A stretch of DNA of 64,000 nt, from the NCBI GenBank assembly GCA_008330645.1, contig VLTN01000025.1, positions 310,001 to 374,000 on the forward strand. Direction: 5' to 3'. The notes beneath the pieces were generated by a model. That model made no database searches. It had not been told where the DNA came from and was given only the letters and a program-made list of their open reading frames with translations. Of this stretch, positions 1-64,000 are shown piece by piece (position 1 is the stretch's first letter; the number at the start of each line of letters is the position of its first letter). This DNA is from Cafeteria roenbergensis. Its lineage: Eukaryota > Sar > Bigyra > Bicosoecida > Cafeteriaceae. The translations under genes and the position numbers were made by a program.

Positions 1-3000
1 TGTCGACCCTCTTTCCCGGCGTGTCCACGCTGCTGGCAAACCTTGTGTCTTCGTTTTCGGATCGGGAAGCGGAGCGCTTCATCGCGGGGGCCGCGGCCGA
101 TTACAGGCCGGGCCAGCCCGTGGACGACGAGACGGAGAGCTTCGTGGAGGAGCGGGGCTTCGGCCCGTCCGCGCCGCGGTGGGCGAACTGGAGCCCCGAC
201 GAGAAGATGGCCGGGCTCGTGGCGGCGCGGCACGAGGCCCGCATCCGGGCCAAGGCCTGGAGGGTCGAGTACGCCCACAGCATGGGGCAGGAGGTGTACA
301 GCGTGCCCATCTCCCCGCTGTTCGTGCGCCGGTCGTTCGAGGAGGTCGCAGTCGCGGTGCACCGCTCGTACGGCTGCGTCCTCTTCGCGGTGGAGACGCA
401 GAGGCAGAACCACCACCCGCGGTGGGCGCGGGCAACGCGCGGCAGCATGGCCCGCCGGCAGCAGCGCAGGTACGACAAGACGGTGAAGCGCTCGGAGTCG
501 GCGCCCAAGTCCACGCCGTCCACGGCGGCGCGGCGGGCGGAGGCTGCCGAGGCAGCAGGGGCGCGGGCGGAGGGGGCGATGCGTGCCGCGACGCCGACGA
601 CGCCGCGGGGCAAGGGTGCGGGGTCGCCGGCAGTCGTCGGCGGGGGGCAGGACGGCACGGGCCTGGGCGTGCGGCCTCGCAGCTCCATGCGGCAGGCAAC
701 GACGCCGAGGCGGGTGAGCGTTCACGACGCAGCGCAGTCCCTCACGGGGAGCAGCGGGGGCTTGCGGGGGAGCCTCGCGGCTGCAACCGACACAGCGGGC
801 CCGCTCGGCGGCCCGATGGCCGTGGCAGGCAGCAGCTCCGCCACGTCGCAAGGATCGGACAGCTCTGCGGCGGAGCGGCGCGACGGCGACCAAGGGTCGG
901 CAAGCGGCGGCGAAGAGACCCGCGGCCACGGCCACGGCCAAGGTGACGACGAGGAAGGCGAGCGCCGGGCGGGGCGCTGGGCGTCCGGGGGTGCGGAGGT
1001 CGAGGAGGACGCCACTGGGGAGCGCGCCTCGGCGGGAAGCGACGGTCGCGCGGGTGCCTCGGTCGACGCCGCGGACATGCGGTCCGGCTCCGCCAAGACG
1101 CGGGGCCCGTCCGCTGGGATGTCGCTGACCACGGTGGGCAGGGCGTCGCGGCTCCCACGGCGGTCAATGAGCTCCAGAGACGTGATGTCCGGCCGCCCTG
1201 CCCTGCTGCCGGCCAAGAGCGACGGGTCCCCTCCTCCGTCGTCGCGCGCAAGGGCCGAGTCGGTTTTGGGAGCGACCGGGTGGCGGGGTCGCCACGCGTC
1301 CGGCCGCAGGCCAGCTCGCCCCGACTCGCCCAGGCGGGCCGTGACGTTTGCCCGCGGGCTGTCGCACACAGCGGAGAGCGAGGCCGGGGAGGAGGACGGC
1401 GACCTGGCCGCGCCGGGGCCGGCCTCGTGGGCCTCGCACGCGCCCGCAAGCCGGTCCATGTGGAACCTGGCCCTCCGCAAGAGCAGGGCCGCGTCCGCAG
1501 GCAAGGGCGTCTCGGGACCGGGAAGCAGCGCCGGCAGCTCGGTGTCCGCAGCGGCCAGGGCCCGCCTCGGCGGCGCGTCCACCGCAGCGAGCAGCTCGTC
1601 CTTCACGATGAAGAAGGCCAGACGTCGCATCAAGCAGCGCGACTCAGTCGTCGGCGACCTGCAGTCCGGGCTCCGGGGCAGGCCCACGGCGTCCTTCGGG
1701 CGCTCGCGGAAGCGATCCACCGCTGCGCAGTTCTCAAGCCTGGTCGGCACGTTCAACCAGAGCCCGACGGGGGGCGGCGCGTTCTCGAGCTTCATCGGCC
1801 CGGTCCAGCGCGGTTCGGGTCTCAGCGGACCCGCCAGCCCGTCTCTGGACGCCCGAAGCGGAGCGCGAGACAGCTTCGGCGCGAGGCCCGGCCGGTCGCC
1901 CCGGTCCCCCAACCAGGCCAGCTGGGAGCTGGAGCCTGAGCGCACCAGCGAGGACGACGACGCAGAGCACCCCACCAGCGGCCTGGGCAGCGCGCGGAGG
2001 CGCAGCTCTGCGCGGGGCCAAGTGCGCGTCCAGCGCAGCGCGTCAGACCCCTCCACAAGCAGCGGGGAGCAGTCGGCGGAGGGCGACACCACGCCCAAGC
2101 TCGGACGGAAGCGGACCTTCTGGGGAGGGCCCGTTCCCGAGCAGCTGGACCCGATGCCCTCCGCGAGCGCCATCCCGGTCAAGCGCTCAGGGGCGCACAG
2201 CCGGCGCCGGTCGTCGACGGCGCCCCGGGAGCGGCCTCGTCGCGACGCCGAGGCAGCCGCCAAGGCGGCTGGCAGCTGGGGCCCCCGGGAAGAGACGCCG
2301 CGGTCGCAGCAAGACTCCGGCCACGCTGCTGGCGCGGCCGCCGACGACCGCGACTACTCGGATATCCGGAGCGAGCTCGTCCTGCTCATGGCGCCCCAGC
2401 ACTACTACCTGCGCGCCGAGGACAGGGTGCTCGTCCTCGCTGGAGACGTCACGCAGGCTCTGAAGCTGGCAAAGCACGGTCGTGAGTTGGCTGCTGATGC
2501 CGCAGTCGTCAGAACTGTGCTTGGCTGCCATTGCTTGCGCTGCGCGTGGCTTCGCGCGCTGGGTCAGGCGCGGCCGTCGCGACGCTGGTGTGCTGAGGCT
2601 TGGGAGGCTCGCTAAGCGGCCCAAGCCTGCGAGTCGTGGCGCTCTCCTCCAGCCGTCCCGCGCTGTGCCTGCCACTTGCCAGGGTGAATCGTTGGCCTCT
2701 GCGGGCGACGCACTCGAGTCACGGTTGCGCGTTGCCCCCGCGCGCAATTGTTGCTGTTTCCACTGTGTTGTGTGCTCGTCTCGCTACACCTCTCTGTCTC
2801 GCTTTCGCTTGCGGTTCGCAGTGGTGCCCCAGCGCACTTGGGAGGAGGAGATGGACGAGGAGGAGGCGGCGCTTGCGGGCGAGCCCGTGTCGCACAGCAG
2901 GCCGGAGGCGCCGCCCGAGGGCGGTCATGGCCTTCCCGAGGACGCGGAGGACGACCAAGGGCCAGGGTCTGACTTGTCGCGAGCCGCCCACGCCGCGCGC

Positions 3001-6000
3001 GGCGCGCTCGGCAACCTGACGAGGCTCAAGCACCTGAGCCCCCGGGGGCGCATCTGGATTCGCAACCAGCGCGCCTCCAAGAGCCGCAAGGGAAAGGGCC
3101 CGCGGTTCGTGCCGAGCATGGTCGCTGCCGCGCTCCGGAAGCTCTGCGACGTGGCACTGGCGGGGCTCGACCCCAGAGTGCAGGCGCTGGCGCGCCGCGG
3201 GGAGGCCCCGGGCGTGTCGCCGGCCGAGGCAGCCGAGGCCCACCGCGCCATCAAGCTGCTGATCCAGAAGCCTCGCTCGGGGTCCGGGCTTCAGGCCCCG
3301 ACGGGCGACGCCGCGGCCGACCTGCTGCTTGTGCTGGAACCAGAGGAGGCCGTGTTCCTTGCGGCGCTGCCCGACTGCAACTTGCCGCCCTCCCCGCTCA
3401 ACTTCCACCGGCTGCCCGCGGCCGTGCGCGAGGCGGTGCTCAGGTCGGCGCTGCCCAAGGGCACCTCCTCGTCGGCGCCGCCGCTCGTCGTGCCTCGCGA
3501 CCTGTCGACGCCCAAGCAGGTGCCGGTCCCCGGTTGGCTGCGGCAGGCGGAGAGCGCCTGTCAGGGCACCGCGCCTGCACGGCTCAAGGGCCACATCATC
3601 ATCGGCGGAGACCTCTCCGGCCTGCCGGACTTGATCCGCCCGCTTCGGAGGGCAACGTCGCAGGTGGTGGTGGTGCTGGCGCCTCGTGCCAGCCTGCGCC
3701 GCGAGAGCTCGTCCCCCGAAGCGCGCGTGTGGCGGATGGTGAAGCGAGTGTACTCTGGCCTGGTTCACGTGGACGGCTCGCCGCTGCGGCCCAAGGACCT
3801 GCTCCGCGCGGGCGTGCAGCGGGCCGGGTGCGTGCTGATTCTGAGCTCGGAGGGGGCAGCGGAGCGAGGCAGCTCGGGGAGCGTCCAGGCCGACAGCGCG
3901 GGCGTCGGCGCAGATGGCGTGGCTGCAGCCATGACCCGCGACTTGGGGGCGCTGTACACGGCGTCGGCCGTGCTGCTCTTCTCCCAGGAGCGGGAGAGGG
4001 AGCTCGCGGGCGTGCTGCGCAAGCAGCGCGACGACGGGCTGTCAACGGACCACGCGCGCCTAGGGGGCATCGGGGACGGAGCCGTGCCCGGCATGGCCGC
4101 GGTTACCAGCAGCGCTGCGGCCGCAATGGACGCGTACGACGTGATCGACAAGCTCGACCGCGGGCGGCTGGAGCGCAGCAGGACCGAGCAGGAGCCGCAT
4201 GCCGGACAGCGGCCAGCGGCCCACGGGGCCGGGCCGATCGGCGTCACGGTGGAGGCACCACCGGAGCTGCGGTCCGCGAGCGCCATCCAGCGCATGGCGC
4301 GGGACATGCCGGCGACGCCTGTCGACCCCAGCACCGGCCGCCCCGGCTCGGGCTTCACGGCCCAAAGCGCGGCTGCCGCTGCCCGTCGCGCCAGCCTCCT
4401 TGGCTCTGCGCCCTCCTTCGCCATCGGCACGTCCGGCGCCCACGCGTCGTTCTTCGCTGGCAGGCCGTCGGAGCTCAGCGTGTCGGCCGCTGTGTCGACG
4501 CTGCGGCCCGACCTCCCCACGCAGATGGAGGACGGCCAGCTCTCCCCTCCAGGCACCGATTTCGCGGCCCACGGGACGGCGGCCCGGCAGCGTATGTCGC
4601 TCGGGGCGCCAACCTCCCCGGCGGGGCCTCGAGGCGCTGCCGGCAGCGACGACGACGCCATTCATTCTGCGTCGCTCATGCGTGCTGCGTCGCTCGCCCG
4701 GCACGGCGTGCCGGCCAGCTCGGCCGGGAACGCCACTCTCAAGACGAAGCGCTCCATGGGAGCGCAGGCCATCATGGAGTCAATGAGCGCGGAGGGGCTC
4801 CAGTCCCAGGTGCAGGCCTTTGCTTCACTCGAGGCGGACAGCGTCGGCGTGGCCCACAACACCGCGGACGGCGGCTCGCACGCGTCGTCGAGCACCACCA
4901 GCCGCCGCAGCGTGACCAGCGCTCGGCTGGCCGACGGGCGGAGGCGCAGCAGCGACGCTCTGGCGGACGGTGGCAGCAGCCGCACCGGCTCGGTCGACGC
5001 TCCTCGGGGCAGGCGCTCGCCTGATGCCGCGCCGTCGCTGGGGAGCGGGCAGTCTCGCAAGGACGGCTCAGCCGATCGCAGGGCGACGCCCTCGGCCGCC
5101 CCCCACAAGCACCGCGTCGCTGAATCCGAGTCCGCCGCGCGGGGCTCCGGATCCAAGACGAAAGGCTCTTCCCGCGGGCAGTCGTCGCGCAGCCGCCGCA
5201 GCGAGGGTCGCTCCTCTGCCGCCGGCACCCCCCACTTCGTGCCGCGGCCTGCCGGCGCCGCGCAGGCGCTGGTGGGAGCCACGCCCCGCGTGATGATCGA
5301 GCTGGCCGACGACACGTCCATCCGCTTCCTGTCGTCCACGCTGCAGCACCCTGTGGTCGCGCAGCGCCGGCGCAACGTGCGGGCGGCGATGCTCCGGGCC
5401 AAGGCGGCGGAGCTGCAGCTGCCCCCCGACGACGGAGAAGGGCGCGCCGCCGCAGACGACGTCAATGCGGAGATCGCCACCGCCCTGGAGGAGGCTGGGA
5501 TGGGCAATCCGTCGAGGTCGACTACAGCCCGCGGTGCGGGGCTGGGGCAGGGGGAGGAGACGGAGTCCTCTCGGCTCCGGCCGCTGTTTGCATCGGGAAG
5601 GGTCTTCCTCGGCGCAATGCTGGACTCCCTCGCAACGGGGCTGCTGTTCAACCCGCTGCTCCTGCGCATCGTCACGCAGCTGCTCTACGGCGCGTCGGCG
5701 CCAGGCGCCACAAGCTCGTCGGAGGGAACTTGCGACCCGCGTCTGGCGGCCGGGCTGCCCGTCATCGTGCGAGCGGACGCCTCCCCGCAGCTGTCTGACG
5801 ACATCGTCAAGGCTCCCGCGCACGACGAGTCGGGGGGCGGTTGGGCGAGTGGTGCCATGTCCGGCGCCAGGTCGCCCTTCACGCCTGGCGGGCTGTCCGA
5901 GCCAGGCGGCCGCGAGGCGGCCTCAATCGGACCCGACCCCCCCGGGCACATCGGGCTCGCCCATCTGGCCCCCGCCATCTCGAAACAGCCTCCCTCAGGA

Positions 6001-8958
6001 GTGTGGGGCTCCCCGTCGCCGTCGGCGATGGTGTCCTCTCCCGCGCCCAAGGGTCCCAGCCCTCGAGACAACAAGGCCGTGCCTGAGCGCGCGTCGCCTT
6101 CCCCCAGCCAGGTCATGCAGGCGGGCCTGCCCGGCCTCCGCGTGACCCCGCCAGACACGCCGCGCTCGGCAGCGTCGTCGGGGGACAACACCACGGGCCC
6201 GGAGGGCACCTCGTCCGGCGCGGGCTTCCCCGGTCTGCATCCTGTCACGCCGACGTCGCGCGCTGCGCACAGCAGCCTTGGCGCCGACTCGCCGCGCACG
6301 CCCGGGGCGCCCCTCACGCCGTCCGCGTCGGCATCGGCTGCCGCGTCGTCAGCAGCGGCTGCCGCCGCCGCCATCGGCCTCAAGGTGAACAAGTGGCGGT
6401 TCAAACAGCACGACTTTCTCCGGCAGCTCGCCGTCCCAGAGTCCTTCCACGGCCGCAGGTTCCACAGCCTGTTCCAGTTTCTGGTGGTGGAGCACAGGAT
6501 GGTGCCCCTGGCGCTGTTCCGCTCGGCCGAGGCGCTGGGCGCGCCCGCTCCGTACGTTGTCACCAACCCCCGCCCGGACCTGCGGGTGCACCGGCAGGAT
6601 CGCGTGTTTGTGCTCTGCGGCGTGGAGCACGTCAACCCCGCGCCGAGGCAGTTTCGTGAGCGGCCCATTCTTGAGCAGGAGCGCAGCGCGGCTCGCTCCC
6701 AGCATCGTGCACACAGGCAGGGCGTGGCTTCTGGCTTTGGCGTGGGCGACGGCACGGCGTTCGACTTTTCAGGCCTGGGCCACGCCGGGAGCGATTTTGC
6801 AAGGGCGGCCGGCGGTCGCGGCAGCGCTGCTTCTGGTACGCCTGCGGGTGCCCCTGAAGGCGCAAGCGGCAGCGAGAAGGCTCTCCGCGGCGACGACCTG
6901 GTCGGCCGCGAGGGAGAGTTCGGCCAGCCCGCCTCGCCCGCGGCCGCTGGCCACCGGCCACCGCCGTCGTTGCGACGCCCCAGCGCCACGGGCCGCGGCG
7001 CCGCCGCGGTCACGAGAGGCGTGGCGATCACGCGACTGCGCTCGCCCGTGCTGCGCCAGGCGTCTGGGCGATCTCTGGCCGGGAGCTCGGCCAGCAGCAC
7101 GGCCAAGACGGCGCGGCACACGCCCACTGGCGAGTCGGCCGCTGCGGGGCCGTCCAGGGGCGCGGGCAGCGGCGGCATCACGGGCCCGCGGGCCGGCAGC
7201 GCCCGGGCGCATGGCCGAGAAGGCCAGTCTCGAAGTCTCACGAGCGACGACGACGACGCTGCAAGCGGCGACAGCTCCAGCACCGCGTCCTCCTCTTCCC
7301 ACGGGAGCCGCGCAGGCAGCCTCGCCGAGTCGGACCAGCTCGGCGACGATGTCACGGCTGTTGGGCCCGAGACAGCGCCCCCTCCCTCCAGCCAGACCGC
7401 CCGAGTGCGCTCGAGGCAGCCGCCGCCGCCGCCGCCCCGTGTGAAGCGCGGCGTGCGGGCCCCGCCCGCGACCCCTCCCGGTGCCTTCCCCGAGATTGAC
7501 AGCCAGCTGGAGGGGCTGGGCATCGTCAGGATCGACACCTCACTCGGAATGCTCGGGTCTGGCGACAGCTCTCCGAGCAGCTCGCAGCCAGCGGCCTCCC
7601 CCGGGCAGGTGGGCGTGAGAAGCGGCACAGCGACTGGGCACGCGCGCGTGGAAGGCGCTCCATCCAGGTCCGGGTCGTCCGACTCGAGCAACCTAGGCTC
7701 CTCGCCCGAGGTGTACCGCGGCGGGGATTCGCCCGACCCGGCCACTCGTTCCCGCGTCTCGCCGGCCGGCGCCATGCCTGCGGCGGCCGGCCGCACCACC
7801 CCAGGCCTCCCCGCCCGGTCGCTGGCGCCGGAGGGGCTGGGCTCCGGTCGGCCGCCGGTCGGGGAGCAGGCGTCCCCGCTCAACGCCTCCCGCAGCAGCG
7901 ACGGGCTGCCGCCCCTGCTGCCGGGGTCGGTGCACCGCCAGCTGCCCAGCGTGCCGCCCGCTCGCCGCGCGGCGCTGAGCACGGGCCAGGCAGGCGGCGC
8001 AACCGTGCAGGCAACCCCCTTCGTCGGCCTCTCAGCCGTTGCGAGCGGCAACTCCGACACTGCGTCAACGGCCTTATCGGCTCACTCCCCGTCCGAGCGG
8101 AGCGTGGGGTTCGAAGACGCCCTGCCCAGGGTGGTGGGCGGCGGGGGCAGGGCTGCGCCCTCCAGCCACCAGCTGAGCTCCCCGCCGGGCACCAGCAGCG
8201 GGTTTTCGCCGCTCGGGCACGCCTCCATGAAGGCTGCCAGCAGCACCCGTGCGTCCATCGCGGGAACAGAGGGCGCCTCCAAGGACGCCACGGCGCCGCG
8301 CAAGGCTCTGCGCAAGGTCAAATCGGGCGCCACGTCTGCCAGCGTGGGGGCAGCGGCGCTGCCCTTCTCGGCGGAGGCAGCGAACCGGTCTCGCTTTGCC
8401 GTGCGGGAGCGAGGACTGACGCCCGTCGGGCTGCATGGCGGGGCCGGGCCGGAGGGGGGCGCGGGTGCTGGCGGAACGAGCTCGGACGCCGGGTCGTCGA
8501 GTGAAGTGCACTCCGGCCCCAGCCGCGGTCCGCCGTCCACGCAGGCCGCGCGTGGGACGACCGCGCACGGGTCGGGGGGGGCGACCTCGCCGGGGGACAG
8601 AAGCATCACCCAGAGGGGCCGCTGGGAGGCGCGGGCCGCATCTTCCGTGGTCGGCTCCTCGGTCGCGGGATCCGTCACCTCGTTCGCGATCAGCTCCGTG
8701 TCGTCGGGGGACCGTGCGCTGCCGAGCCCGCAGGGAGACGCGTCCAGCCAGCCGCGGGACGGCGGTCCGGGGCGAGGCCGCGCCGGCTCCGACATGGCGG
8801 GCAGCGCCCGAACCAGCGGCGCGGCCTCGGAGGCGGGCGCAGCGGCAGCGACAGGCACCTCGTCACCAGTGCGCTCGCAGCGGGTGCGAGTGGTGTCGCT
8901 CCCCTCCATCGCCCCCCTTGCGCCCGGGAGCTCGGCCGCTCAGCCGAAGCGCGAGTGA
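1..8958 (+). CDS. Slo-family (Slo2/KCNT-like) K+ channel, cytoplasmic gating ring, 5'-partial
   Basis: This is the C-terminal cytoplasmic part (about 2,871 residues visible) of a high-conductance K+ channel of the Slo family; the membrane pore lies upstream of the window. The frame is open from base 3. An intron at 2482-2821 (GTGAGT...CGCAG) joins two long exons in phase. The GVSTLLANLVSSF motif (residues ~7-19) and EVYSVPISPLF (~97) match the RCK1 start. LVLLMAPQHYYLRAEDRVLV (~790-815) matches the RCK1 end. GHIIIGGD...DLLRAGV (~1082-1145), FASGRVFLGAMLDSL (~1749) and YVVTNPRPDLRVHRQD (~2070-2090) match RCK2. The FASGRVF and NPRPDLR forms look closer to Slo2 (Slack) than to BK, and no run of Asp like the BK calcium bowl is seen. 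About 640 disordered residues split RCK1, and a ~770-residue Ser/Gly-rich tail follows RCK2. The family is secure. The subtype and the ligand (Na+, Ca2+ or other) are inference. Confidence 0.8.
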
Positions 8959-14211: not shown

Positions 14212-17200
14212 CTAGTGCTGGTACCCCGCCTGCGCCGCAGCAGGCAGCGATCCCGACTTGATGCGGAACCTGGCCAACAGGCCGAGGTGGTTCGATGCGC
14301 GCGCCGAGTTGGGCAGGATTTCGTCGTCTGCCGCCTCGAGCGTGTTCGTGGCGTCGGGCACCTCGTCGGGGAGGAGGGCGGTCGGGATGCGGCCAACGGC
14401 AGCGAGCTCCAGCAACTGAGCAGTGTAGAATATATAGTCCACACAGGCAACCGTCACGGGGCCGTCGCCGCTGCTCCACGCGCCCTCGGAGTCAGCTGAC
14501 ACGTCGCTGCGCGCGTCCGCATCTGGGGCCGGTGGCGCAGTCGGGGAGTCCGCCCCTTCCAAGCACTGCCGAGCTGCCCGGGTGCGGCGAAACCGCTCGC
14601 CGGGGTGGCAGGGAGTGTCGTCCAGCCCATCCCCGCCAGGCGTGCCCACGGGGCTGAGGACGGTCATGCCCGGCTCGGCCCTCCCCAACGGGGGCTCCCA
14701 CCGCGACGACCGATGCAGCAAGGCAGAGAGGCGCGCCTCTGCGGGGGCCAGGCCTTGCAGCTCCGCCGGGCCGAGGCGGGGGGCTTGCTTGATGCCGGGG
14801 CCCAGTCCCGCCGCCCTGGTGGGAATCTGACAAGGCTGATGGCGGCTCCGGCTCCGACGGCGCCCTCGGGCCGGTGGCAGGTCGTCGCACTCCTCCTCCT
14901 CGGGACGCGGGGAGCCGGTGGAAGACGCGTCTCCATCCCATGCGTCGGACAGCGCGCCGCTGGAGGCGCCGGTGCCGCTGCTTGTCGAGCGCCCGATGCC
15001 AGGCTGGGCCGAGCTGCGCGCCCTGCGCCTGCCAGTGGATCCGACGTCCTCGCCGACGTCCTCACCGACGTCCTCGCCGACGTCCGAGCCGACGTCCGAG
15101 CCGAAGTCCTCGCCGTCGCTGTCGCTGTCGGCGACCACTGCACGGTGCGTGGAGGGCGGGTGGTACTCGAACGAGTCGGCCGCCGAGGCCGCGTCACCAT
15201 CCCGGTCACCTCCGGCCGCCTCGAGCACCCGGCCGCCCGACTCTCCGCGATGGTGGCGCTGCGTCGCGCCCGGAAGCGCCGCGACATCCGCTCCGGGTGC
15301 GCGCCCGTCCCCGCCTCCGCGCGGTTCCGGGAGCGCGTCGGGGTCCTCCTCGGGCAGCAGGTATCGATAGCACTCGTATGCGCTGGCCAGGCCCAGCTGG
15401 TGCACGCGCCGGCCGCGCCTGCCGGTCCAGCTGGGATCGGGCCGCGCCTGCATCTCAGCTCTCGGGTCGATGCCGCGAGCCAAGCAATAGCTCGCGGCAC
15501 GCTCGCCGCCACCCGCCAGTCGTCCGTCCCCGCCACCAGCCCCCGGCGCCAGACCGCGCCAGGGCACGTGAGCGGACGCGGTGCCGGGCTGTTCAAGCGC
15601 CGCTCCGGCCTCGTCCCTGGGAGTGGCCTCTGTAGGCCAGTCCTCCAGCAGAGTGTGCTCGGGGCGCGCGGGCGCCACCAGCGCGTCGTCCCCGGGCGCG
15701 CGCCGAGCCAGCAGTGCAGACGCGACGCTGCTGCCGGGCGCGGAAGGGGCTCTCCACTCCTCGGGCACCGGCAGCGGGCGGGCAGCTCGCAGCGGGACGG
15801 CGGCGCAAGACGCCGTTGCGGCCGTGCCCCGCGCCCCGGTTGCCCCGCCCGCGGCCGCACTGATGGGCGTCGCCGCCGCTGTCGTCTCCGTCGTCGCAGC
15901 CGCCTCTGCGTCCGCGGCTCCGCTCGACGGCGGGTGCCTCCCGCCGCGTCGCGGGCCTGGGCGCGGCTCCAGCGCGGCGAGGGCCGCGGCCCCGGCTGTG
16001 GCCTCCGTCACCCCCAGGCTCTGCAGGTCGTCCTGCAAGGTGGCTGCCTGCCACCTAGGCTGTGGCCTGGCGGCGCTCTGCACCGCGACGCGGCGTCGCT
16101 CCTTCTGCCGGAGCTCCACCTCAGTGCTGCCCCCGTCTGCCCCCATCACGAACCCGTCAGCCGCCCAGAGCAGCTGCTCTGGGCCCGCGGGCCGCAGCAG
16201 CGACGCGGCACCGGTGAGCCTCGCGGCGTGCTCAGCATCCATGGCCGCAGCAGGGTCCGGGTCGTCCGCCACGGGCTCGTCACGCCCGCGACCAGACGGC
16301 CCCTCGGACCGGGCCGTCGGGGCGGCCGCGCACACGGACAGGGCGTCGATGTCCTCGTCGGACGACACAGCCCCCGCGTCCCCGGCCTCATCGTCGCTCT
16401 TGCCTTCCGCGGAGGAGTCCGCGCTGGCCGCCGCGGCTCGCGCTCCCGAGTCGGCAAACGCCGCCACTGCCGCGGAGCGGGCGTTGCTCATTCCCGCGCG
16501 GTTCGTGGCTGCCTCCAGCTCGTCGCGCCGCGCCGCGGCCCGTGCCGCCCGCGCCGCCTCAGCCGCCGCCGCAGCCGCAGCCGCCGCCTCCTGCTCCTCC
16601 TGCCGGGCCAGCGGCCCCGCGCCCCACAGCGCAGCCCCGCCCGGCGGCCGTGCCACCGCCCCAGCGCCGGCTCCGTCGCCCCCGCCGCCACCAGGCAGCC
16701 AGTGCGCCGCCCGGGGCCGCGCCATCGTCCAGCCCCTCCCCTGGTCGCCGCCCTGCTCCCCACGCCTGCTGCCGGCATCGCCGCCGCTGCCCCTCGGCCG
16801 GCTGGCGCGTCTTCGGCCCGAGCCGCCAGCCACGCGCTGTCGGCTCTGCAGCTCTGCAGCAGCGCCCACGCACCCCATCTCCCGCAGCTCTGCCGGTGTC
16901 AGCTCTGCCGACGTGACCCCGCGGTCGGCCAGCTCGGCTGCCAGCCGCGTCTGGCTCGCTGACTGGGCGCGAGTTGACGGAGTGATGACTGCAAGCGAGG
17001 GAGGCGAGACCCGGCCCGGACCCACTGCCGACACGGCCGTGACGCGAAACACGTACACCGCCCCCGACGACAGCCCGGTCACCACCGTGGTGACCAAGCC
17101 GTCCAGGCCGGCGCCCCTGCGGGCGTGTCCCGAGGGGGGTGCCAGGGCGCCGGCGCGGCCTGCAATGGCCCGCGGAGCACCCGCCCCCGCTGCCGCTGCT

Positions 17201-18987
17201 GGCCCCGAGGGGGCTGCGAGCCAGGCTGCCAGCCTTGCTGCCGCAGAGGCCGGGCCGGCCACGCCCTCGCCGTCAGCCCCGGGCGGCGAGTGGCAGCCAG
17301 CGGCGCGGCCAGCCCTGCCCGCTGGGTCGGCGCAGTCGAGCTCGCTTGCCGACACCACTGCCACCCTGAGGAAGGCCTGCGCGCCGCCCGCGGAGGCCGC
17401 GAGCGGGCCGTCATGCTCCGCCCCGCGGGCTGGCCGCGAGTGGTTGGCCTCGCCGCTGGCTGGCAGCGGGGCCGCCGTTGCGCCCCACGGAGCGGCGCTG
17501 CAGGTGTGCGCGACGTTGTCAAACGACGATCCCACGCTTGGAAGGGCCTCAATCGACGCGTCCGGGCCTGCGGCGCCCGCCACCCCGGGCCCAGCCCTGC
17601 CAGCCTGAGAGACACGGCCGACCAGCGCCGTGACGGACCCGTCGACGCGCACCACTGCCGGCCCGCCACCGCCTCCCGCCCCGCCGGCTCGCCCCGCGAC
17701 TGGCCCTGTGCTGCGCGGCGCGCTTGGCCCGGGCGGCTGGTCGCCAGAGCCCGATCCGCTGGGCGCGCCGGGCACGGACCAGGCGGACGCGACGGACCCC
17801 GGCCCAGCGTCGGGCGCCGAGGCCGAGGGTTCGAACGAGTCAGCAACGACAGCTTCGCGATGGTGCTTTGATGGGCCGCCGGTGGAAGCGGGGTGGTTGC
17901 CGGAGCGGCCTGCTGCGCCGGTGCCTGCATCCGCGCCTGCTCGCGCAGCAGCAGGGTGAGACGGCGACACCACCGCCGCGTGAAGCTCGTAGCGGAGCAC
18001 GGGCGCATCGCCCTCAGCGTGGTGGTCGAGGGGAGGCCACGACACCCGCACACTCGAACACCCAACCGGCACCGCCGCTGGCCTCGCAACGGCAGCCGGC
18101 GGGTCTGGGCCAACGGGCTCACGGCCTACGCGCAGCAGGCGGTACACGGCCGTGCGGGGCGTGCTGGAGGTCGACAGGCCGAACAGCAGCGGGCCCGGAG
18201 ATCCAGCCGCGAATCCTGCCGACGCCCGGCAGAGCCACCTGACCTGGTGCTGGCGAAGGGCAGAGCCCTCCGGCGCGGGGTCGCCCGCCAGCTGGGCAGA
18301 GACGACGTGGATAGGGGTGGCGTGGCGTCCCGGGGCGGTGGGCAGCACCGTCACCATGCAGGCGGCCAGGCCTGATCGCGCCCTCGCACGTGCTCCACCC
18401 GTCACCAGCGACCCTGCGACCGCTGCCGCGCGCAGCGCCTCTGATCGGACGATGCGAAACTCGGAGCGGCGCACGGCTACCGCACAGCTGCGAGGGGCCC
18501 CCGCGGACAAGCGCGCAGCGGCCAAGGCGACGACACGAGTGCAGCGCGGGGTCAATGCCGCGACGCTGCAACGCAATCACACGCCCCTCCCTCCCGCCCT
18601 CCCCACCTCAGCCTCTTCCTCTCGCCACGAGAGTGCAGCCCATCGCAACCAAACGAGACCTCACAAGACTCCGGGGTCGTCGCTGCGAGGCGCCACTGCC
18701 ATGTCGTAGCCCAGGCGCTTCATGGTCGGAGCCCACCAACGCTCGTACCCATCGATGTCTTGAAGCGCCACCAGAGACGCGCCCGAGCTCCTGACCTCTG
18801 CCTCCAGGCGTGTGTGTCTGCTCGGAGCGTGGAGGCTCGAGGCGTGGACCAGCGGAAAGTTGGCTGCAGTGGCCCGGCGCTCCGCCAAAGCGTGGAGCGA
18901 GAGGAAGGTCAGCAAGTGCTCGTCCGGCGCCGCTTCGGCGCCAGCCCTCGTCTGAAGCAGTGTCCAGTCCGGGCAATTGAGCTCCAT
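14212..18987 (-). CDS. Catalytically decayed EEP (CCR4/Angel-type) nuclease fold with inserted FN3 domain
   Basis: Exons 18987-18665 and 18565-14212 join in phase, giving about 1,558 residues. The fold is traceable along the whole chain as an endonuclease/exonuclease/phosphatase domain of the CCR4/Angel deadenylase group. Seen are SLVALQDID (71-79), the TP..VYRLL block (~243-253), HQLGLASAYECY and DYIFY (1484-1488). The metal and catalytic motifs are changed: LQEV(D) is LQDID, the Asn-Thr-His-Leu strand is VSAQL (196-200), GDFNS is GLSTS (235-239), and SDH is SNH (1532-1534). Between residues ~262 and ~620 sits an FN3 domain (VRVSWPPLDHHAEGDAPVL, later VYVFRVTAVSAVGPG) that is itself split by ~280 low-complexity residues. 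The rest is disordered. It is most likely a pseudoenzyme or scaffold. The first exon is preceded by an acceptor-like CTTGTGCAG, so an upstream exon is possible; the ATG at 18987 is a working start. Confidence 0.68.
15041..15112 (-). repeat. 12-bp tandem repeat in coding sequence (six units)
   Basis: Six near-identical 12-bp units (ccgacgtcctcg and variants on the + strand) encode alternating Gly-Ser/Glu-Asp-Val tetrads on the minus strand, within a disordered acidic part of the decayed nuclease protein. Confidence 0.9.
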
Positions 18988-24173: not shown

Positions 24174-27123
24174 ATGGCAGCCGCCGCCTCCAGCCGCCGC
24201 GCCCCGCGCCGGCCGCGGGACGAACCTGACGACGCCCGCCCCGTGCGCAGGTCTAAGCGCGAGCGCAAGCCTGCGCACTCGGGAATGCCCGAGCCCTGCT
24301 CGGCGGAAGAGGAGCGGCTGTTGCGTATCGCCGTGGAGGTGTCGCGCAGAGACCAGGTGAGATGCGTTTATTCACGCGTGCCGCCGCCCTTCCCCGCCCC
24401 GGCCGCCCGTTGCCCCGCCCGCGGGCGGCGCTGGGCAGGCAACCGCACCGGGCCCGCTCTGCGGGGAACAAAAGCAAGCGGGGCAGCCGCTCCGGGGCGC
24501 TCCGCCGAGCCGACGATCGGATGGAACAAAAAAAAAAAGCTCGCCGCGTTGCACGCTGGCACGACGTCAGCGCGCGCCGTTGGCGCGCCCCCGCGTATTG
24601 CCGGTCCGGCCGCCAGCATATCTGTGGGCGCACGGCGCGCGAGAACCGGCACGGGCGCGGGAAGGCGCAGCGGCCGGCTCGCAGGCCGGCTCGGGGAGCA
24701 CTCGGGCTGCTCCGTGCCGCCGACGTCTGCCCTCGTTCGATCCAGCCGGCCCGGCCGGAAGCGGCCTGTGGCCGGCGCAGCGGCGGCTGCGTCTCCGCCC
24801 GCCTCCCTGCCACGCGTGACGGCCGCCCGCGCGGCATGGAGGCGGGCGCTGGGCCGGGAGCCCTCGCTTGCCGATCGCGGCCAGGCCACTTGACTGGCCC
24901 CTAGCGCAGTTGCCGCCCGCCGCAAAACCCACTTCGACCGCTCCTCCCACCGAAACGGAGTCGCTCTCCTGAGTGGTCCCCCCACCCCACGGGTTGCCCC
25001 ATGCGCGGGCCGTGCAAGCCAGCTCGCGCCACCTCGCAGCGCATCGCCACTGGCTTTCGCTTGCCTCCGTATCCCTCGGTGCGCAGGGAATGGAAGCGGT
25101 GCGCGCCCCCGAGTGCCCTGTATTCACCCCCACGGTGGAGGAGTTTCGCGACCCCATGGCCTACATGCGAAAGATCGCCCCAGTTGGATGGAAGCACGGC
25201 ATTGTGAAGATTGTGCCGCCCGTCGGCTGGAGGCCCGCGTGCGGGGTCACGAAGCGCATGGCCTCCCGCCCGCTGGCCACCAGGAAGCAGCTGGTGCACG
25301 AGCTGCAGGAGGGCCGCGAGTTCGACGACGGGAAGGACTACACGTTGCCAGAGTACAAGGCAATGGCCGACCGGTTTGCGGCCACGCGCTTTCCGGAACT
25401 TTCGGCCACCACGGCCAGCGCTCCGGCCAAGCCCGAGCCCGCGTACTGGGCTCGCCCCCACGCCACGCGCGACCTCGGCCCCCCCTCGAGCTGCATGCAG
25501 CTCGCGCCCCGGGTGGAGGACGCGTACTGGCGCATAGTGGAGGCCCGCGAGTTGGAGGTCGTGGTCGAGTATGGCAACGACCAGGACGTTCGGGTGAACG
25601 GCTCCGGCTTCTCCTTCCCCGACCCCGGTGACGCTTGTGCCGGGGACCCCGACCGCGTCCCGGTCGACTTCCGCGACCCCCAGTTCTACAAGCGGTCGGG
25701 CTGGAACCTGAACGTGATGCCCTTCGCGAAGGGGTCGCTGCTGGCATACATGAAGGAAAAGGTGGCGGGGATCAACGTGCCCTGGCTCTATGTAGGGATG
25801 CTCTTTGCTTCCTTCGCGTGGCACACCGAGGACAACTACTTGTACTCGGTCAACTACATGCACTACGGCACGGCAAAGACGTGGTATGGGATCCCGGCTT
25901 CTGGCGCCTCGGCATTCGACGCGACAGTCAGAGAGCACCTCTTCGAACAGTTCAAGCAGGAGCCCGATCACATTCACAAACTGACGACTGTGTTTAGCCC
26001 GGCCAAGGTCCAGGCGGCCGGCATCCCGGTCGTGCACACCGTTCAGGAGCCCGGCGAGTTCGTGATCACGTTCCCGAGGTCGTACCACTCGGGCTTCAGC
26101 CACGGCTTCAACATCGCGGAGGCATGCAACTTTGCATTGGCGGACTGGGTGCCGATGGGCAGGCTCGCCATTCGCCACTACGAAACCGTAGCGCGAGACA
26201 ATTGCTTCTCGCAGGAGGAAATCCTGTTGCGCGCCGCGGCCGCGCCCGACAAGCTCGATGCGCAGGCATGCTCGCTCCTGGCGGCAGATTTGCGAATCAT
26301 CGCCGAGCAAGCCCGACTCGATCTCGAGAGCTTCCTTGCGCTTCCTGGCGTATCTAAGGCCCAAGTTGTGCTGTTGAGCGAGGACCACCAGCGGTACAAC
26401 TGCGCGGTCTCCCGCAGGCTGTGCCACGTGTCGGCTGTTGTCTGCGAGTCCGAAGCGTGCCGCCTCGAGGCAGAGAAGGCGCGCATCGAGGCCCGGCGTG
26501 TGTTCGCCAAGGAGCGGGCCGCCCTCATCGCTGTGGGGGTCGACCCGACTGGCATTGTCGAGAGCGACCCGCAGCATCAGGTGGTGCTGCCGCGCTTCGC
26601 GGACGAGCTGTGCGACTGCAAGCTCTCAAACCTGCGCATGGTGGTGTGGTTCACGGAGGAGATGATTCTCGGTCTGTGTGCCAAGCTCGAGGCTCGCAGG
26701 GACGAGCTCCTTCGCGATGTGGCCAGGGTCAAGACTGAGCCCGTGGGCGCCAGCCAAGGGCCATGCGCATCATCCGCAGCCGTGGGAGTGCGGCGTTCGC
26801 CGCTGCTTGCGGCCGTGCCCGGACCGTCCGTTCCAAGCTCGAGCTCGAGCTCGGCCTGCGTGCAGGCCGAGTTGCGGCACAGCGCCCGCGACCGCTCATC
26901 AGCAGCTATGGTTTCGGCTGCCCGCTCAGCGTCGACTTCTCCCATGGGCGGCGATGCTGTGCAGGAACGCGGAGCCAAGCATGATGCGACTCGAGGCGCA
27001 GCGACTGCGCGCTTTTCGACTCCGCCACGAGGCAATACAATGAGCGCCAGCGACTCGCCCATGACTGCTGTGTCCTCGGCCCCCGCTGCCGCCGACTGTG
27101 ACGCTCTGGGAGACGCGGCCTAG
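24174..27123 (+). CDS. JmjN/JmjC histone lysine demethylase (KDM4/KDM5/JMJ14-like)
   Basis: Two exons (24174-24356 and 25087-27123; 730-bp intron) give 739 residues. The N-terminus is basic (VRRSKRERKP) and probably nuclear. JmjN lies at ~71-110 (CPVFTPTVEEFRDPMAYM). A linker YWRIVEARELEVVVEYG with GSGFSFP is of KDM5/JMJ14 type. JmjC lies at ~260-415 and keeps the Fe(II) ligands His307 and Glu309 (AWHTED) and His400 (FSHGFN), plus KTWYGIP. A weak C5HC2-type finger follows at ~500-610, with the second half clearest (FADELCDCKLSNLRMVVW). There is no PHD, ARID or Tudor domain. The enzyme should demethylate methyl-lysine on histone H3 using 2-oxoglutarate and oxygen. The target lysine (K4 or K9/K36) cannot be read from sequence alone. 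The last ~170 residues are Ser/Ala-rich. Confidence 0.85.
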
Positions 27124-30014: not shown

Positions 30015-33000
30015 TCAGTCGCGTTTCCCGTCCCCTCCCTTGCGCGTGCGGACGCGGAACACAGCCTTTTGGTCGTCTTGGCCCGCCGCGCCGTACAGCG
30101 GCTTGCTGCCGCCCCCGCGGGCCTCCGAGCGCTTCTTGGACTTGGACCTGGAGCGGCGCGAGCCGCCGCTGGCCGGCCTGCGGTGCGAGCTGCCGGAGGT
30201 CGGCGCAGCCATGGGGTGCAGGTGGTACCACTGCCCGGTGGCCGGGTTTTGGGCGATTGGCCGTCTGTCCTTGTCCAGGGCGACGCTTGAGCCCTCGGGA
30301 ACCGGCATGAAGCCAGGGAAGGGCGTGAACATGCGCACGCTCATGGAAGGCGGCCCGCCCGGCATCATGCCCGGGGCCATGCTTCCGTAGGGCGCCCCCA
30401 TGCCCGGGTGCTGGAAGCCGCCGTAGGCCGACTGCGCGGGGCCGTACTGGCCCGGCGTTTGGCCCCCGTACCCGGCGCCGGCCCCCGGCGGGGCGTAGGG
30501 ACCCGACGGGCCAGCGGCCCCGGCGAAGCCTGCGGCGGGCGGGGCGGGGTACATGGGCCGCTGTGGTCCCCCGGCCGCGGAGTGGTACGACGCGTCCGAC
30601 ATGCGGCTGTCCGGGCGCCACTCGCCGTCGGCCGGCCCGCCACGCTGTGAGTGGAAGGACGTGCGCGGGTCGCCAGCCTGCTGCTGCTGCGCCGCCATGC
30701 GCGCAAGGGCGGCCGGCGACGGGCCCGGCGGCGCGGTGGGCCGCCCAGAGAAGCTGCCCGAGGCGGGTCCAGCAGGACGCTCGGGGCGCATTGGGCCAGC
30801 CGCAGCTGCCCCGCCGGGGCCCTGCGCTGCCCCGCGTCCCGCCGCGGCCACGGTCGCCGCCATGGCGTCCGCCGCCTGGCTGGCGCGGCGCTGGTCCGCC
30901 TCGAACTGGGCCTGCGCATGCTGCTGGGCCCGCATCGTCAGAAGCGAGTCCGAGCTGCCCTGGGCGGTCGGCCCCACGGCGGAGCTGCGCCCCGTGTAGC
31001 GGCCGGCCGCCCCAGCGCCGTCCGCGAAGGAGACAGCGTGTCCGGCCCTCGCACCCTTGAGGGCGCGGGTCGGGTCGCCCTCGGGCCGGGCCGGGGCCTG
31101 CGGCCTGCCCGAGGTCGCGGCCGGCACGCCCGACGCGGCGCGGGGCAAGCCCTTTCCCGCCCCGGAGACAAAGGCCGTCCTGTAGGCCTGGTTCACCCGC
31201 CGCTCTGCCTCGGTCATGGCCGACTGGAAGAGCAGCACCTTGAGGGACGAGTCGCGCACGACCGACTCGAGCGCCTCGAGCTGCAGGCGCGTGAGCCGAA
31301 GGCGGGCCGACGGCGCAGGGAGGGCCGCTTGGGCCTTGCGTGTGCCGCTCGTCGCCGCCTTCATGGCCGCGCCCAGCGGTTTCGCCACCTCCTTGGGCAG
31401 GACGGTCATGCGCCTGTCTGCGATCTCGCGGAGGAGGCGGCCGTAGTTGAGCAGCATGAGGCGCATGCGGTCCAGCACGTCGAGGTACTCCTCCTGGATG
31501 CCGGCCTCGCCGCCCATGCGCTGGGCCGTGTGGGAGAGCCGGCGCCGCGCCAGCAGGATCTGCCGCCGGGTCCTGGTCTCGCCGGTTTCGCTGATCTCCT
31601 CGTCGTCGTCGTCGCCTCCCAGCCGCGCGCCGCGCAGCTCCTCCGTCTCGAGGAGGGCGCGGAGGCGGCGGCTGTGCTCGAAGCCGCCCGGCCCGTCCTC
31701 GTTCTCCTCCCCGCTGCCCGACGCCGCGCCGCCGAGGCCAGCCGTCGCCTGCCCGCCGTCGCGCGTGCGCATCGGCGGGTCGGTCAGCGCGTTCACGAGC
31801 GACTTGGACCCCTTGGCAGCCTCGGCGCGAGGCACGTCCACCGCCTGCTTCTTGCCCCCCGCGCGCGCCACGGCGGCGCGCTGCTCGCCGGCCGACTGCG
31901 CGCCCTTGGCGCCGTCCGCGCCCTCCTCGCCGTCCACCGCCCCGCTCGTGGCGCGCCCAACGGCCGCCGACGTCCGCACCTGCTGCCGCAGCTCGTCGCG
32001 CACCTTGGCCGCGCGGGACACCTTGTTCATGGCCGCAGCCACGTCCAGCACCAGCTTGTGCAGCGAGTCCGTGTCGATGGCCTCCTCGCCGCCCGGGAGC
32101 ATCACGATCCCGTCATCCTCCGGGACGATGGAGCCGCGCGCTGTCCTGGCGGCCGAGGCGGCAGCGGCCGCAACCTTGCGCCGGTTGGCCTGGTCGGCCG
32201 ACACGCGAACCGCCTCCTGCTTCTGCTCTGCGCGCTTGATGGCGGCCTCGGCGTCGTCCATGGCCGCGGTGACACGGTGGTGCGGCGCGCTGTTGGGCGG
32301 GAAGGTGGCCTCGTCGTCGCTGACGTCGGCCCGGAGCATCTCCAGACGGCCCTGCGACTGAGCCAACCGCTTGCCCGCGTCGCGCTCCTGCGCCAGCAGC
32401 GCCTCCGCAGCGGAGCGGTCCTTGTTCCGCGCGGCCGCAGCGGCCGCGCGGAAGGCCTTGACCGCCGCCTCGGCCTCCGCGAGGCTGGTCGCCGCTGCCC
32501 CCACGGCCGAGTCGAAGCCCATCGCGGCAGCAGCGCGCCGGTCCGGGTCCGTGGTCCCGTCCATCCGGTCGCGCTCCGCGCTCGCGCTGGCCATGGCGTC
32601 GGCCGCGGTGCCCGTGCTCCGCTGCGCGGCAATGTACGCGGCGCGCGCCTTGCCCGCAGCGCTGCTGGGGCCGGCGGCCGCGGCCGCCCGACCCGACACC
32701 ACATCCTCGCCGGCGGACTCGATGGCGTGGTCGAGGTCGCGCTGCGCCCTGTCCAGCCGGCCCCGCAGCCCCGCCAGCCGCGCCGCCAGCGCGCCCTCCT
32801 TGGCAACCAGGTCCCGCAGGCCCTCCGCCAGCCCGGCGCGCAGCTCCTTCACGGCGGCCTCTGCCGCCTCCACGTCGGTGCGCGCGGTCTGCATGGCCTC
32901 CTGCAGCTGCCTGGCAAGCGCTTGCTCCATGGCCGCGCTCTCCTCCGCCTCGGCGCGAGCCTCGGCCTCGTCCTCCGCCTTGGAGGGGGTGGCCGCGCTG

Positions 33001-36000
33001 CCCGGCTCGGCGGCACGCTGGGCCGCCTGGGCGGCCGCCGCCGCCTCCGCCGCGGCGGCGTTGCGCCGGGCCACCTCCCGCTGAGACTCGACCAGCTCGG
33101 TCAGCACGGCCCTGCCCCCTGCAACGCTCCCCGTCGCCTTGCCCACGGCCGCGTTGGCCCGCTGCATCGCCGGCTTGGAGGGGGCCGCGCCGGACTCCTC
33201 CACCGCCGCCGCGGCGGCCTGGGCCCGCGTGTCCAGCTCCCCGATGAGCTGCTCCGCCTCCAGCAGCGGGGCCACGCGCCGGCGGGCCCGCTGGAGGCTC
33301 ATCACCGCCTTGGTCGCCGCGTTGGCGCACCCGCGCGCCTCAGCCACGCTGCCGAGGAACTTGGCCTTGATCGCCGGAGGGCAGTTGCTCCGAGGGACGA
33401 ACCGGCCAGCCCCGGCAGACGCCCCGCCGCCCCTGGCCGAGGCCGAGAGGGGGCCGGTGGAGCTGAGCGAGCCGCCCACCGACAGCGCCCCGGTCCACGG
33501 CGAGCGGTCCGGGCTCGAGTCGCTGCCACGAACGCCCCCCACGGACACTGGTCCTCCCCCGCCCGCGGCGTGGTCGGACGACCGCCGGCTCCCGGACCCG
33601 AGGCCGGACTCCGCCCCGCCGGCCCAGTTCCCGACCATGTCCCTCCTGGCCGTGGCCTCGGCGACCGCCCCTCGGCCCTCCTGCACGGCCCGCCTGGCCG
33701 CCTCCAGGGCCGGAAGCAGCGCCTTGCCGCGAGCAGTGTGGCCGGCGCGGAGAGGCGACGTCGGCGCGCCGCTCCCGCCGGCTCCCGCCCCCGACGACGC
33801 AGCTGCTGCGCCCCCCGCCCCCGAGGCAGCCTCCTCCTTCTCCTTGATCTGGCGCGCGCCGTCCTCGGCCTGGAGCTCCGCCTCAGCCAGCTGCAGCTCC
33901 TCGTGCGCCCGCTGGACCGCGGCGTCGGAGCGCGAGAGCGACGCAGCAGCGTCGCTCAGTTCCTCGTCCGCCCGCGCAGCGAGCCGCCGCTCCAGCGCAG
34001 CCGCAGCAGCGGCAGCCGCCTTCTTCAGCGCCGAGGCGGCGTCCTCCACAGCTGGGATGCGCTGCCCGTGCAGCGTCCTCACGAGCCGGCTGACCTCCGC
34101 GGAGAACACGGGGGGCACGGCGGCCTCGATCGCAGCCTTGAAGTCCTTGCTGGTGATGTCTCCGGCCCCGCTCTCGGAGACGGCGTCCGGGTCTTCGTCG
34201 CCGTCGTCAGCGTCCTTGCTCTCTGCCGCACCGGCGCCGGCGCCGGCACCGGCACCGGCTGCGGACGCGTCTGCGGCCGCGGTCGACGCACCGGCGCCCG
34301 CACCGCTCGCGCCAGTGTGCGAGAGCCTGAGGGCAGCCTCCACCTCCGGGGCGCCGAGCAGCACGTCGCGAAGGCTCGACGCCTCCTCCGCCGCGGTCTC
34401 GGCCGCGCGGAGCGCCCGGTTGGCAGGGCCCAGCGTCTCCAGGTCCTCCTGCCGGGTGCCCACGCCGCCCGCCCCGGGCATCCCGGCGCCGGACATGACG
34501 CTCGTGCCCGCGCGGAGAGACGCGCGCCGGCGGGACCGGGCCGCCTCCTTGGCCGTCGACTGAGCGCGCAGCGCCCGAACTCGCTTGCCTGCCGCGGCGA
34601 TGACGCGCTTCGCCTGCCGCAGCCGGCCCAGCGCCTCTCCCAGCCGCCGCAGCACCCGCCTCGCCCCCGCAGCCTTGAGCTGCTCGTCCTGCGACTCAAC
34701 GGCCTCCTCGGCCTTGCCCACGGCGGCCTCCGCAGCCTCCACCGACCGCAGGTACGGCAGCACAAGCGATGCGGGCGCGTCGCGGGACTCGCCGTCGCCA
34801 GCGCCGGCAGCACCTCCGGCCTCCGCAGGCCCCGGCACGACGGGGCCCACCGTGGAGTCGAGGACCTGCTTGTGTGTCCTGGCCTCGGCGACCGCCTCGC
34901 GAGCCGTCCCCAGCGCGGAGTTGAGCTTGGACGCCGCTGCAAGCGAGTTGAAGCCCCTGGCGGCCGTGCTGGACATGGTCTCGCCGCCCGCCGTCATCTC
35001 CAGCGCGTCCTCCGCGCCCTCGCCGCTCGACCGGCCGCCGGCGGAGGCGGCCCCGGCAGACATGAGCTTGTTGAAGTCAGCTGCCACTGACGTCATCCGG
35101 GACGACACCGCGGCGAGGCGGCGGTCGGCGTCGCCGCGCACAGCCCGCATCCTCGCGGCCTCGGCCGCGTCGGCGCTGCGGCTGCTGCGGTCCCTGGCGC
35201 CCTGGAGGGCCTCCGCCACCGCCCCCACCTGCGCCTCGAGCGGCGCCACGCAGAGCACCAGGCGCCTGGCAGCCGCCTGCCTGCTGTCCCGGGCGCGAGC
35301 AGTCAGGCTCGAGGACCCGCGCCCGCCGTGGCTGCTGCCGCCCGGCCCAAAGCCCCACTCAGGCTCGGCCAGCTCGCTGCGGCCGCCCCCCGACGCCGAC
35401 GACGAGGAGGCCTTGGCCTCCGCGGCCAGGGCGTCTGCCTCGGACAGCGCGGCGGACACCTTCTCAAAGGCCTGCGGCAGCGGCATGCTCGACGTCGTCA
35501 GCTCTGCCGAGCCCACGTCCAGAACAGGCGCCGGGAGGGCGCTGTTGGCGGAGGCCAGCTCCGCGCCCAGGCCGCGCGAGGGGGCGCCTTGGAACTCGTC
35601 CACCACCTCTGGTGGCACGTCGGGGAGCGCGCACACTTCCTTGGCGAAGTCGGCACGCTCCTTGTCGGACGGGGCGCGCAGCAGGCCGAAGCGCGCGCGC
35701 GCGCGAGCCAGCGCCGCGATGGCGTCGACAGTGGCCTCGGCCAGTGCGCGCTCCCGCCCGGCGGACACGGCGGCCTCCGCTGTCTCGACCGCCTTGGCAG
35801 TGTCCCCGACCGCGTGCTCCGCGGCGGCGACCTTGGCCACGAACCGGGCGGCGCGGTCGCGGTCCTGCGCGAGGGGGGAGCCCTCCGCGAGGCCGAACGC
35901 CGCGGCCACGGTGGACTGCCTGCGCGGCACCACGGCCCGGCGGCCGGGGCGGGACTGGGGGGACCCTGTCCCGTCTCTGGGCGGCGCAGCGGCGGCCGGC

Positions 36001-41553: not shown

Positions 41554-41589
<36 letters not shown>

Positions 41590-63600: not shown

Positions 63601-64000
63601 CCATCACTGTGCAGCGGGGCAGCTGGCGGCACGTGTCCCGCGGGCTGGTGGAGGGCCGCCCGTACCGCTTCGCTGTCTCGGCCTCCTCTATCGTGGACGG
63701 CGCGACTGCCGTCGGGCCCCGCTCCCCCATGGTCAGCGTGCTGGCCGCGTCCCTCCCCCTGCCGTCCTCCCGCGCTCCAGAGTTCACTGACATCAAGCCC
63801 GCCGCCATCGGCGTGTCGTGGACCCGCGCCGACGGAGAGGACCCCGACGGCCGCGTCGCGCTTGCCTCCGGGAGCCCCATCACCGGCTACCGGCTCTACG
63901 CCTTCCCGGGCGTCGGGCCCAACTCCCCCCTCGCCGTGAGCCCCGTCAGGCCAGAGGTCCAGACCGTGTCCGTCACGGCGGCCAACTCCACCGACGAGGT
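57620..64000 (+). CDS. Giant secreted FN3 protein with ~110-residue EVQ-type beta repeats, 3'-partial
   Basis: Exon 1 (57620-57671) encodes a signal peptide start (MRLLAAAIATAVLLAQH). It joins in phase to an exon from 57931 that stays open to the window edge, giving about 2,040 residues with no stop yet. A recurring ~110-residue unit reads G-G-(S/T)-F-x-L-S-F, AL..LP.VG.V.V.R, G..W.VTF, GD.P.L and LTG. I count about eleven, beginning near 58251, 58572, 58938, 59317, 59716, 60533, 60883, 61249, 61575, 62740 and 63235. FN3 elements alternate with them: a complete-looking FN3 at ~62195-62480 (LTVSWEPPLDNGGAPVTGYE) and split ones elsewhere. The tripeptide EVQ marks the passage from FN3 strands into repeats. 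It is an extracellular adhesion or matrix protein by inference. Whether it has a membrane anchor is unknown, because the 3' end is missing. Confidence 0.78.

Follow-up and report, generated by a model that had tools for sequence, protein, structure and literature searches.

A gene on the minus strand of the marine flagellate Cafeteria roenbergensis, at positions 14212-18987 of a 64,000-nucleotide stretch (the window: GenBank assembly GCA_008330645.1, contig VLTN01000025.1, positions 310,001 to 374,000), encodes what we read, on balance, as a pseudonuclease of the EEP fold that belongs to the CCR4/ANGEL/PDE12/Nocturnin group and would work as an adaptor. The descent of its 1532-residue product from this group is close to certain, and the residues at its active site make it very likely inactive as a two-metal nuclease. 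Functionally, the protein is probably a non-cutting relative of the nucleases that trim mRNA tails, one that would bind or hold other molecules. An earlier note on this DNA, made from the letters alone, had proposed a CCR4/Angel-type fold with every catalytic motif substituted, a pseudo-nuclease turned scaffold. The ancestry and the loss of most catalytic residues bear this out; the turn to a scaffold does not follow to the same degree, the catalytic loss not being significantly preferential (p = 0.18; see below).

Evidence for EEP ancestry

Because scans of the protein, its parts and a joined core (its hand-chosen EEP pieces) against Pfam and NCBIfam returned no EEP match, we built hidden Markov models (HMMs) of the family, against which the full protein was scored unselected alongside the core. 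A model of six rows, namely human CNOT6L, CNOT6, PDE12 and part of ANGEL2 with the CCR4 (L001) and ANGEL-like (L008) loci of the same genome, gives 25.4 bits to the core and 18.6 bits to the full protein, the best of 5000 shuffles reaching 5.3. With the Nocturnin-like locus of the genome (L006) and three bacterial relatives added, the resulting ten-row model gives 49.2 bits to the core, 42.0 to the full protein, 37.1 to the first 240 residues and 15.9 to the last 83, whereas no shuffled core among 5000 exceeds 4.3 bits and no shuffled full protein among 500 exceeds 1.5. A seven-row model without the rows from the protein's own genome gives 34.6 bits to the core and 26.5 to the full protein. 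Since the unselected full protein also stands clear of its shuffles, the score of the core is not merely a product of piece selection. A profile search of the kind proposed in the earlier note was, in sum, positive with the family model built here and negative with that of Pfam.

Pairwise comparisons point to the same group. In a phmmer search of PDB sequences, the joined core matches yeast Ccr4 (E 7e-4), ANGEL2 (E 3e-3) and CNOT6L (E 2.3), with nothing else up to E 10. By blastp against the ten family rows (E values for a nominal database of 1e8 letters), the comparison with the genome's own CCR4 extends over 354 alignment columns at 24% identity (E 1.9e-8); ANGEL2 follows at E 2.9, and the remaining rows are unlisted. 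The bacterial rows (L015-L017) come from a search of genome contigs with the EEP alignment, which returned eight prokaryotic loci; the other five (L018-L022) proved on reading of their translations to be more distant EEPs and were excluded.

The landmarks of the family occur in their usual order along the chain: FLSLHALAE (residue 28), LQDID (75), VSAQL (170), GLSTS (211), VYRLL (222), LASAYE (1141), DYIFY (1458) and SNH (1506-1508). This order, including VYRLL, L.SAY, DYIFY and a final HLxLLAxFRx, agrees with that of Ccr4 and ANGEL2; we take the homology to be real because of this agreement and because the full-protein score clears its shuffles. The earlier note had claimed conserved spacing as well as order; the spacing holds up to VYRLL and breaks down beyond it, where two inserts of about 900 and 290 residues interrupt the EEP domain. 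The first (about residues 236-1132) begins with a fibronectin-III domain whose two halves stand about 280 residues apart, and the second (about 1160-1446) looks low-complexity, with a 12-nucleotide tandem repeat at 15041-15115. The borders of the inserts and of the fibronectin-III domain were placed by eye.

The protein is predicted from two exons (18987-18665 and 18487-14212), the start codon ATG lying at 18987 and the stop codon ending at 14212, and the span given in the earlier note agrees with this model exactly. A donor, GTGAGG, follows 18665 and an acceptor, CGCAG, precedes 18487, and the predicted intron holds two in-frame TGA codons. The predicted splice is supported because removing the intron restores the EEP-family strand GCAxFxRxS, in the form FCAVAVRRSEF. 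The gene and the parts of its product are as follows:

18665..18987, minus strand: exon 1, residues 1-107 and two bases of codon 108; N-terminal EEP part (FLSLHALAE, LQDID, MKRLGY), placed by HMM, yeast Ccr4 and ANGEL2 alignments
18664-18488, minus strand: predicted intron of 177 nucleotides, GT-AG (GTGAGG...CGCAG), from predicted splicing
14212..18487, minus strand: exon 2, last base of codon 108, residues 109-1532 and stop
18106..18486, minus strand: middle EEP part, residues 109-235 (CAVAVRRSEF, VSAQL, LSTSS, VYRLL)
17956..18102, minus strand: first half of the fibronectin-III domain, at the start of insert 1; with both halves joined, the fn3 score is 33.6 bits (cut-off 25)
16999..17106, minus strand: second half of the fibronectin-III domain; alone 20.6 bits, below the cut-off of 25
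15361..15405, minus strand: EEP part VHQLGLASAYECYRY, the L.SAY landmark between inserts 1 and 2, aligned with HNLALKSSYNC of yeast Ccr4
14251..14463, minus strand: C-terminal EEP part, VACVDYIFY ... LPNSARASNHLGLLARFRI, from alignment with ANGEL2 332-428; Asp489 and His529 kept, Asp528 replaced by Asn1507

Structure prediction with AlphaFold2 (AF2) was confined to pieces, the EEP domain, split by the intron and the two inserts, being no single contiguous translation. A model of codons 1-293, read through the intron, has a mean predicted local distance difference test score (pLDDT) of 53.2 and a predicted template-modelling score (pTM) of 0.59, with residues 31-100 at 71-88 per ten-residue block; it places residues encoded by the intron at a strand position, and we made no use of its detail. 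A Foldseek search of the PDB with this model places PDE12, CNOT6/6L, Nocturnin and ANGEL2 at ranks 1-15 (E 6e-7 to 5.2e-3). For a 126-residue fragment of exon 2 (mean pLDDT 71.9, pTM 0.67), the six best matches are Nocturnin (four), CNOT6L and PDE12, at E 2.9e-3 to 4.9e-2, with none at or below 0.001.

Active-site residues

We compared eight active-site positions in the numbering of CNOT6L, checked by motif positions: N195, E240, H360, D410, N412, D489, D528 and H529. They are invariant in the comparison rows, CNOT6L counted (10 of 10 rows at the first five, and all eight rows with letters at the last three). The window protein has H32, D77, Q173, S213, S215, D1458, N1507 and H1508 in their place, so that six of the eight are changed (N195H, E240D, H360Q, D410S, N412S and D528N) and two are kept, namely Asp489, within DYIFY, and His529. 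The codons of the substitutions in the N-terminal and middle parts are:

18892..18894, minus strand: His32, replacing Asn195
18757..18759, minus strand: Asp77, replacing the Mg ligand Glu240
18292..18294, minus strand: Gln173, replacing His360
18166..18174, minus strand: Ser213 and Ser215, replacing Asp410 and Asn412

Asn195, Glu240, Asp410, Asp489 and His529 are described as the catalytic residues of CNOT6L, and its E240A mutant as inactive (PMC10590902); three of these five are changed in the window protein, to His, Asp and Ser respectively, with Asp489 and His529 retained. His360, Asn412 and Asp528 likewise give way to Gln, Ser and Asn. Of the two Mg ions, the first is reported to be held by Glu240 and the second by Asp410, Asn412 and His529 (PMC4032980); both sites are affected here, the former by the change of Glu240 to Asp and the latter by the replacement of Asp410 and Asn412 with Ser. 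The two-metal reaction is unlikely because these two serines come together with the loss of Asn195 and His360.

These results qualify the picture of wholesale substitution drawn in the earlier note. Its four listed changes (Glu to Asp in LQDID, VSAQL for the Asn-Thr-His-Leu motif, GLSTS for GDFNS and SNH for SDH) all stand, save that a gap-free alignment sets GDFNS against LSTSS (residues 212-216), one residue later; Asn195 of the SYN motif, now His32, is a further loss beyond that list, and the word 'every' fails at Asp489 and His529. The true catalytic motifs might also have lain elsewhere in the chain, and a motif search of its whole length found none: no GDxN, SDH, [NG]xH[LMF] or xYN-type motif occurs at another place, QE is present only twice, within an alanine-rich stretch (residues 737-741), and the only xDH is an LDH at residue 261, in the fibronectin-III part.

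Weighing the pseudonuclease reading

Several observations weigh against reading the protein as a pseudonuclease. Apart from the silence of Pfam and NCBIfam, a PDB search with the first 282 residues alone gives nothing significant, yeast Ccr4 coming closest at E 0.12. The AF2 models of the pieces are of modest confidence by their pLDDT, their EEP superpositions for the 293-codon model are loose (TM-score by query length 0.37-0.44, rmsd, the root-mean-square deviation, 7.2-14.3), and they depend on the sequence alignment, the AF2 alignments having included genuine EEP rows. Of the invariant positions, 2 of the 8 catalytic ones are kept and 8 of the 13 others, a difference in the expected direction and not significant (p = 0.18); variants of the same test give p = 0.18 and 0.20 for identity kept at two thresholds, and 0.16 and 0.08 for identical-or-similar residues. 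Codon-position GC contrast is weaker in the 130 codons of the middle piece (0.77/0.66/0.79) than at the ends. Finally, the kept Asp489 and His529 and the conservative E240D may leave room for some metal binding or other chemistry, and yeast Caf1, of another deadenylase class, is described as active in vitro with its DEDD motif reading SEDQ (PMC4032980), so that residue loss need not equal inactivity.

These last points are also what speaks for the protein being an enzyme still, acting on a phosphoester through a rearranged EEP site made up of Asp77, Asp1458, His1508 and nearby residues, as does the activity of a fellow group member, ANGEL2, as a 2',3'-cyclic phosphatase (title of PDB 6rvz). 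We consider this unlikely, given that the positions of Asp410 and Asn412 (now Ser), His360 (Gln) and Asn195 (His) are all four kept in every one of the ten rows compared, ANGEL2 and the Nocturnin-like L006 among them, and that the precedent of Caf1 comes from a different nuclease class.

It is more doubtful still that the gene is decaying, that is, an EEP paralogue without function which drifts and stays open by chance in GC-rich DNA. The window mean of 2-kb GC (guanine-plus-cytosine) values is about 73%, and four strain assemblies of the species are reported at 70-71% GC (PMC6972860). The very low identity to the genome's own CCR4, the failure of Pfam to recognise the protein, the loss of 5 of 13 other invariant positions and the occurrence of long chance frames at this place (820 open codons on the other strand) would all suit such decay. 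Set against them, the 1532 codons hold no internal stop, where 300 dinucleotide shuffles average 17.0 and never hold fewer than 7. The frame is thus longer open than shuffling gives, in keeping with the earlier note's claim of a frame open over some 1.5 thousand residues. GC by codon position is contrasted at both EEP ends, with 0.67/0.53/0.79 over the 110 codons at the start and 0.67/0.51/0.85 over the 92 at the end (no control gene), and removal of the predicted GT-AG intron joins two EEP parts in frame. Divergence of this degree in a frame free of stops speaks for selection on the frame, which the absence of stops and the codon-position GC together favour.

Very improbable is the remaining alternative, that separate transcripts carry the N-terminal half of the EEP domain, the fibronectin-III region and the C-terminal piece of the EEP domain: the splice sites are predicted and the inserts, at about 900 and 290 residues, are large, but exon 2 is a single open frame of 1424 whole codons that carries three EEP pieces (middle, SAY and C-terminal) in the order of the family, and the genome's own ANGEL-like gene has a long GDFNS-DYIF stretch inside one frame.

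Returning to the pseudonuclease reading, the EEP shell may still have a face that binds a partner or a ligand resembling poly(A) or a nucleotide, and the fibronectin-III domain and long low-complexity inserts could recruit other proteins; the protein would then serve as an adaptor or compete as a decoy with active EEP deadenylases. A role as adaptor or scaffold, taken for itself, is a tentative proposal, by analogy with Ssd1 and the pseudo-domains of Pan2 and Pan3. More speculative, and on the unlikely side, is a dedicated pseudodeadenylase, in which a CCR4/ANGEL relative that does not cut, its fold carrying a grafted-in fibronectin-III domain, would bind RNA tails or deadenylase partners and tune mRNA decay.

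Genomic setting and known systems

The active members of the family are present in the same genome. A search of its 36,303,456 bases on 167 contigs found an intact CCR4 (L001, best PDB match CNOT6L), an intact ANGEL-like EEP (L008, ANGEL2) and an intact Nocturnin-like EEP (L006, Nocturnin), together with a CAF1 gene. There are 11 PF03372 matches, nine of which are covered by the eight loci examined (places on contigs C69 and C33 were left out); among frames of at least 100 codons in these loci, the deadenylase-type ones are L001 (220.4 bits), L008 (96.2) and L006 (79.3), with L004 weak at 18.0. A search of the genome for a second copy of the window gene found none, returning the gene itself and three weak places only. 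Two of these (L011, E 0.065, and L014, E 0.03 and with one stop inside) are not significant and lack EEP landmarks, and the third (L012, E 0.2) is identical with the CCR4 gene. Viral contigs, searched with the window protein and with the EEP alignment, yielded no relatives.

In the ANGEL-like gene (L008, 1234-3708) a long stretch separates the GDFNS and DYIF parts within one frame, all eight catalytic positions being intact. The window gene is thus not alone in having long loop inserts. Fibronectin-III matches are frequent in the genome, with at least 50 at E up to 0.01. Many of them fall in a 17,788-codon stop-free frame on contig C25, part of which occupies window positions 57897-64000 on the plus strand and runs past the window; contig C2 carries a similar stop-free frame of 16,246 codons.

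The genes neighbouring the window gene encode an alpha/beta hydrolase, a DnaJ-like frame (26.4 bits, just below its cut-off) and a RanBP-type zinc-finger protein, and they give no clue to its function; Rfam and tRNA scans of the window returned no matches. Elsewhere in the window lie a 2164-codon open frame with a Slo-like RCK potassium-channel domain (2464-8958, plus strand), an open frame of histone-demethylase type with JmjN, JmjC and KDM5 helical domains (24973-27123, plus strand) and a stop-free frame of 5095 codons in DNA of about 76-78% GC (30015-45302, minus strand). Cafeteria roenbergensis is now named C. burkhardae. The newer name is in use in PMC8547959.

Among known systems, the closest by sequence are active nucleases. 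CCR4 carries leucine-rich repeats. The window protein shares the EEP landmark order of CCR4/CNOT6L (PDB 3ngn, and L001 in this genome) at the low identity given above; unlike them it lacks most catalytic residues, and Pfam finds fn3 alone in it, without leucine-rich repeats. To ANGEL1/2 it is linked by its C-terminal piece, which aligns best with ANGEL2 (LPNxxxxSxHLxLLAxFRx), and it differs from them in its changed active site, its fibronectin-III domain and its long inserts. No pseudoenzyme of the EEP deadenylase class is described in the literature surveyed, which comprised titles and the starts of abstracts, along with passages of two reviews, under a few terms and with partial coverage.

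Dead folds are described within the deadenylation machinery itself, in the pseudokinase Pan3 and the inactive USP domain of Pan2 (PMC10590902). By its residues the window protein would likewise be a dead enzyme fold; these are other folds, in members of a deadenylase complex, whereas its own membership of such a complex is hypothetical. Nearer in kind is the fungal Ssd1, an RNase II pseudonuclease derived from Dis3L2 and described as an inactive RNA-binding protein: it too is related to an RNA-decay nuclease and has lost its active site, in a host that keeps an active family member (PMC8097288). Ssd1 belongs to the RNase II family rather than to the EEPs, and its functions have been shown, whereas the window protein is known from sequence. 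Should the latter bind RNA or a CCR4-NOT partner without cutting, the EEP nuclease class too would be reusable as an adaptor, and such an adaptor would sit in a marine flagellate with four sequenced strains. If true, a pseudodeadenylase of this kind would be the EEP counterpart of Ssd1 in its relation to Dis3L2.

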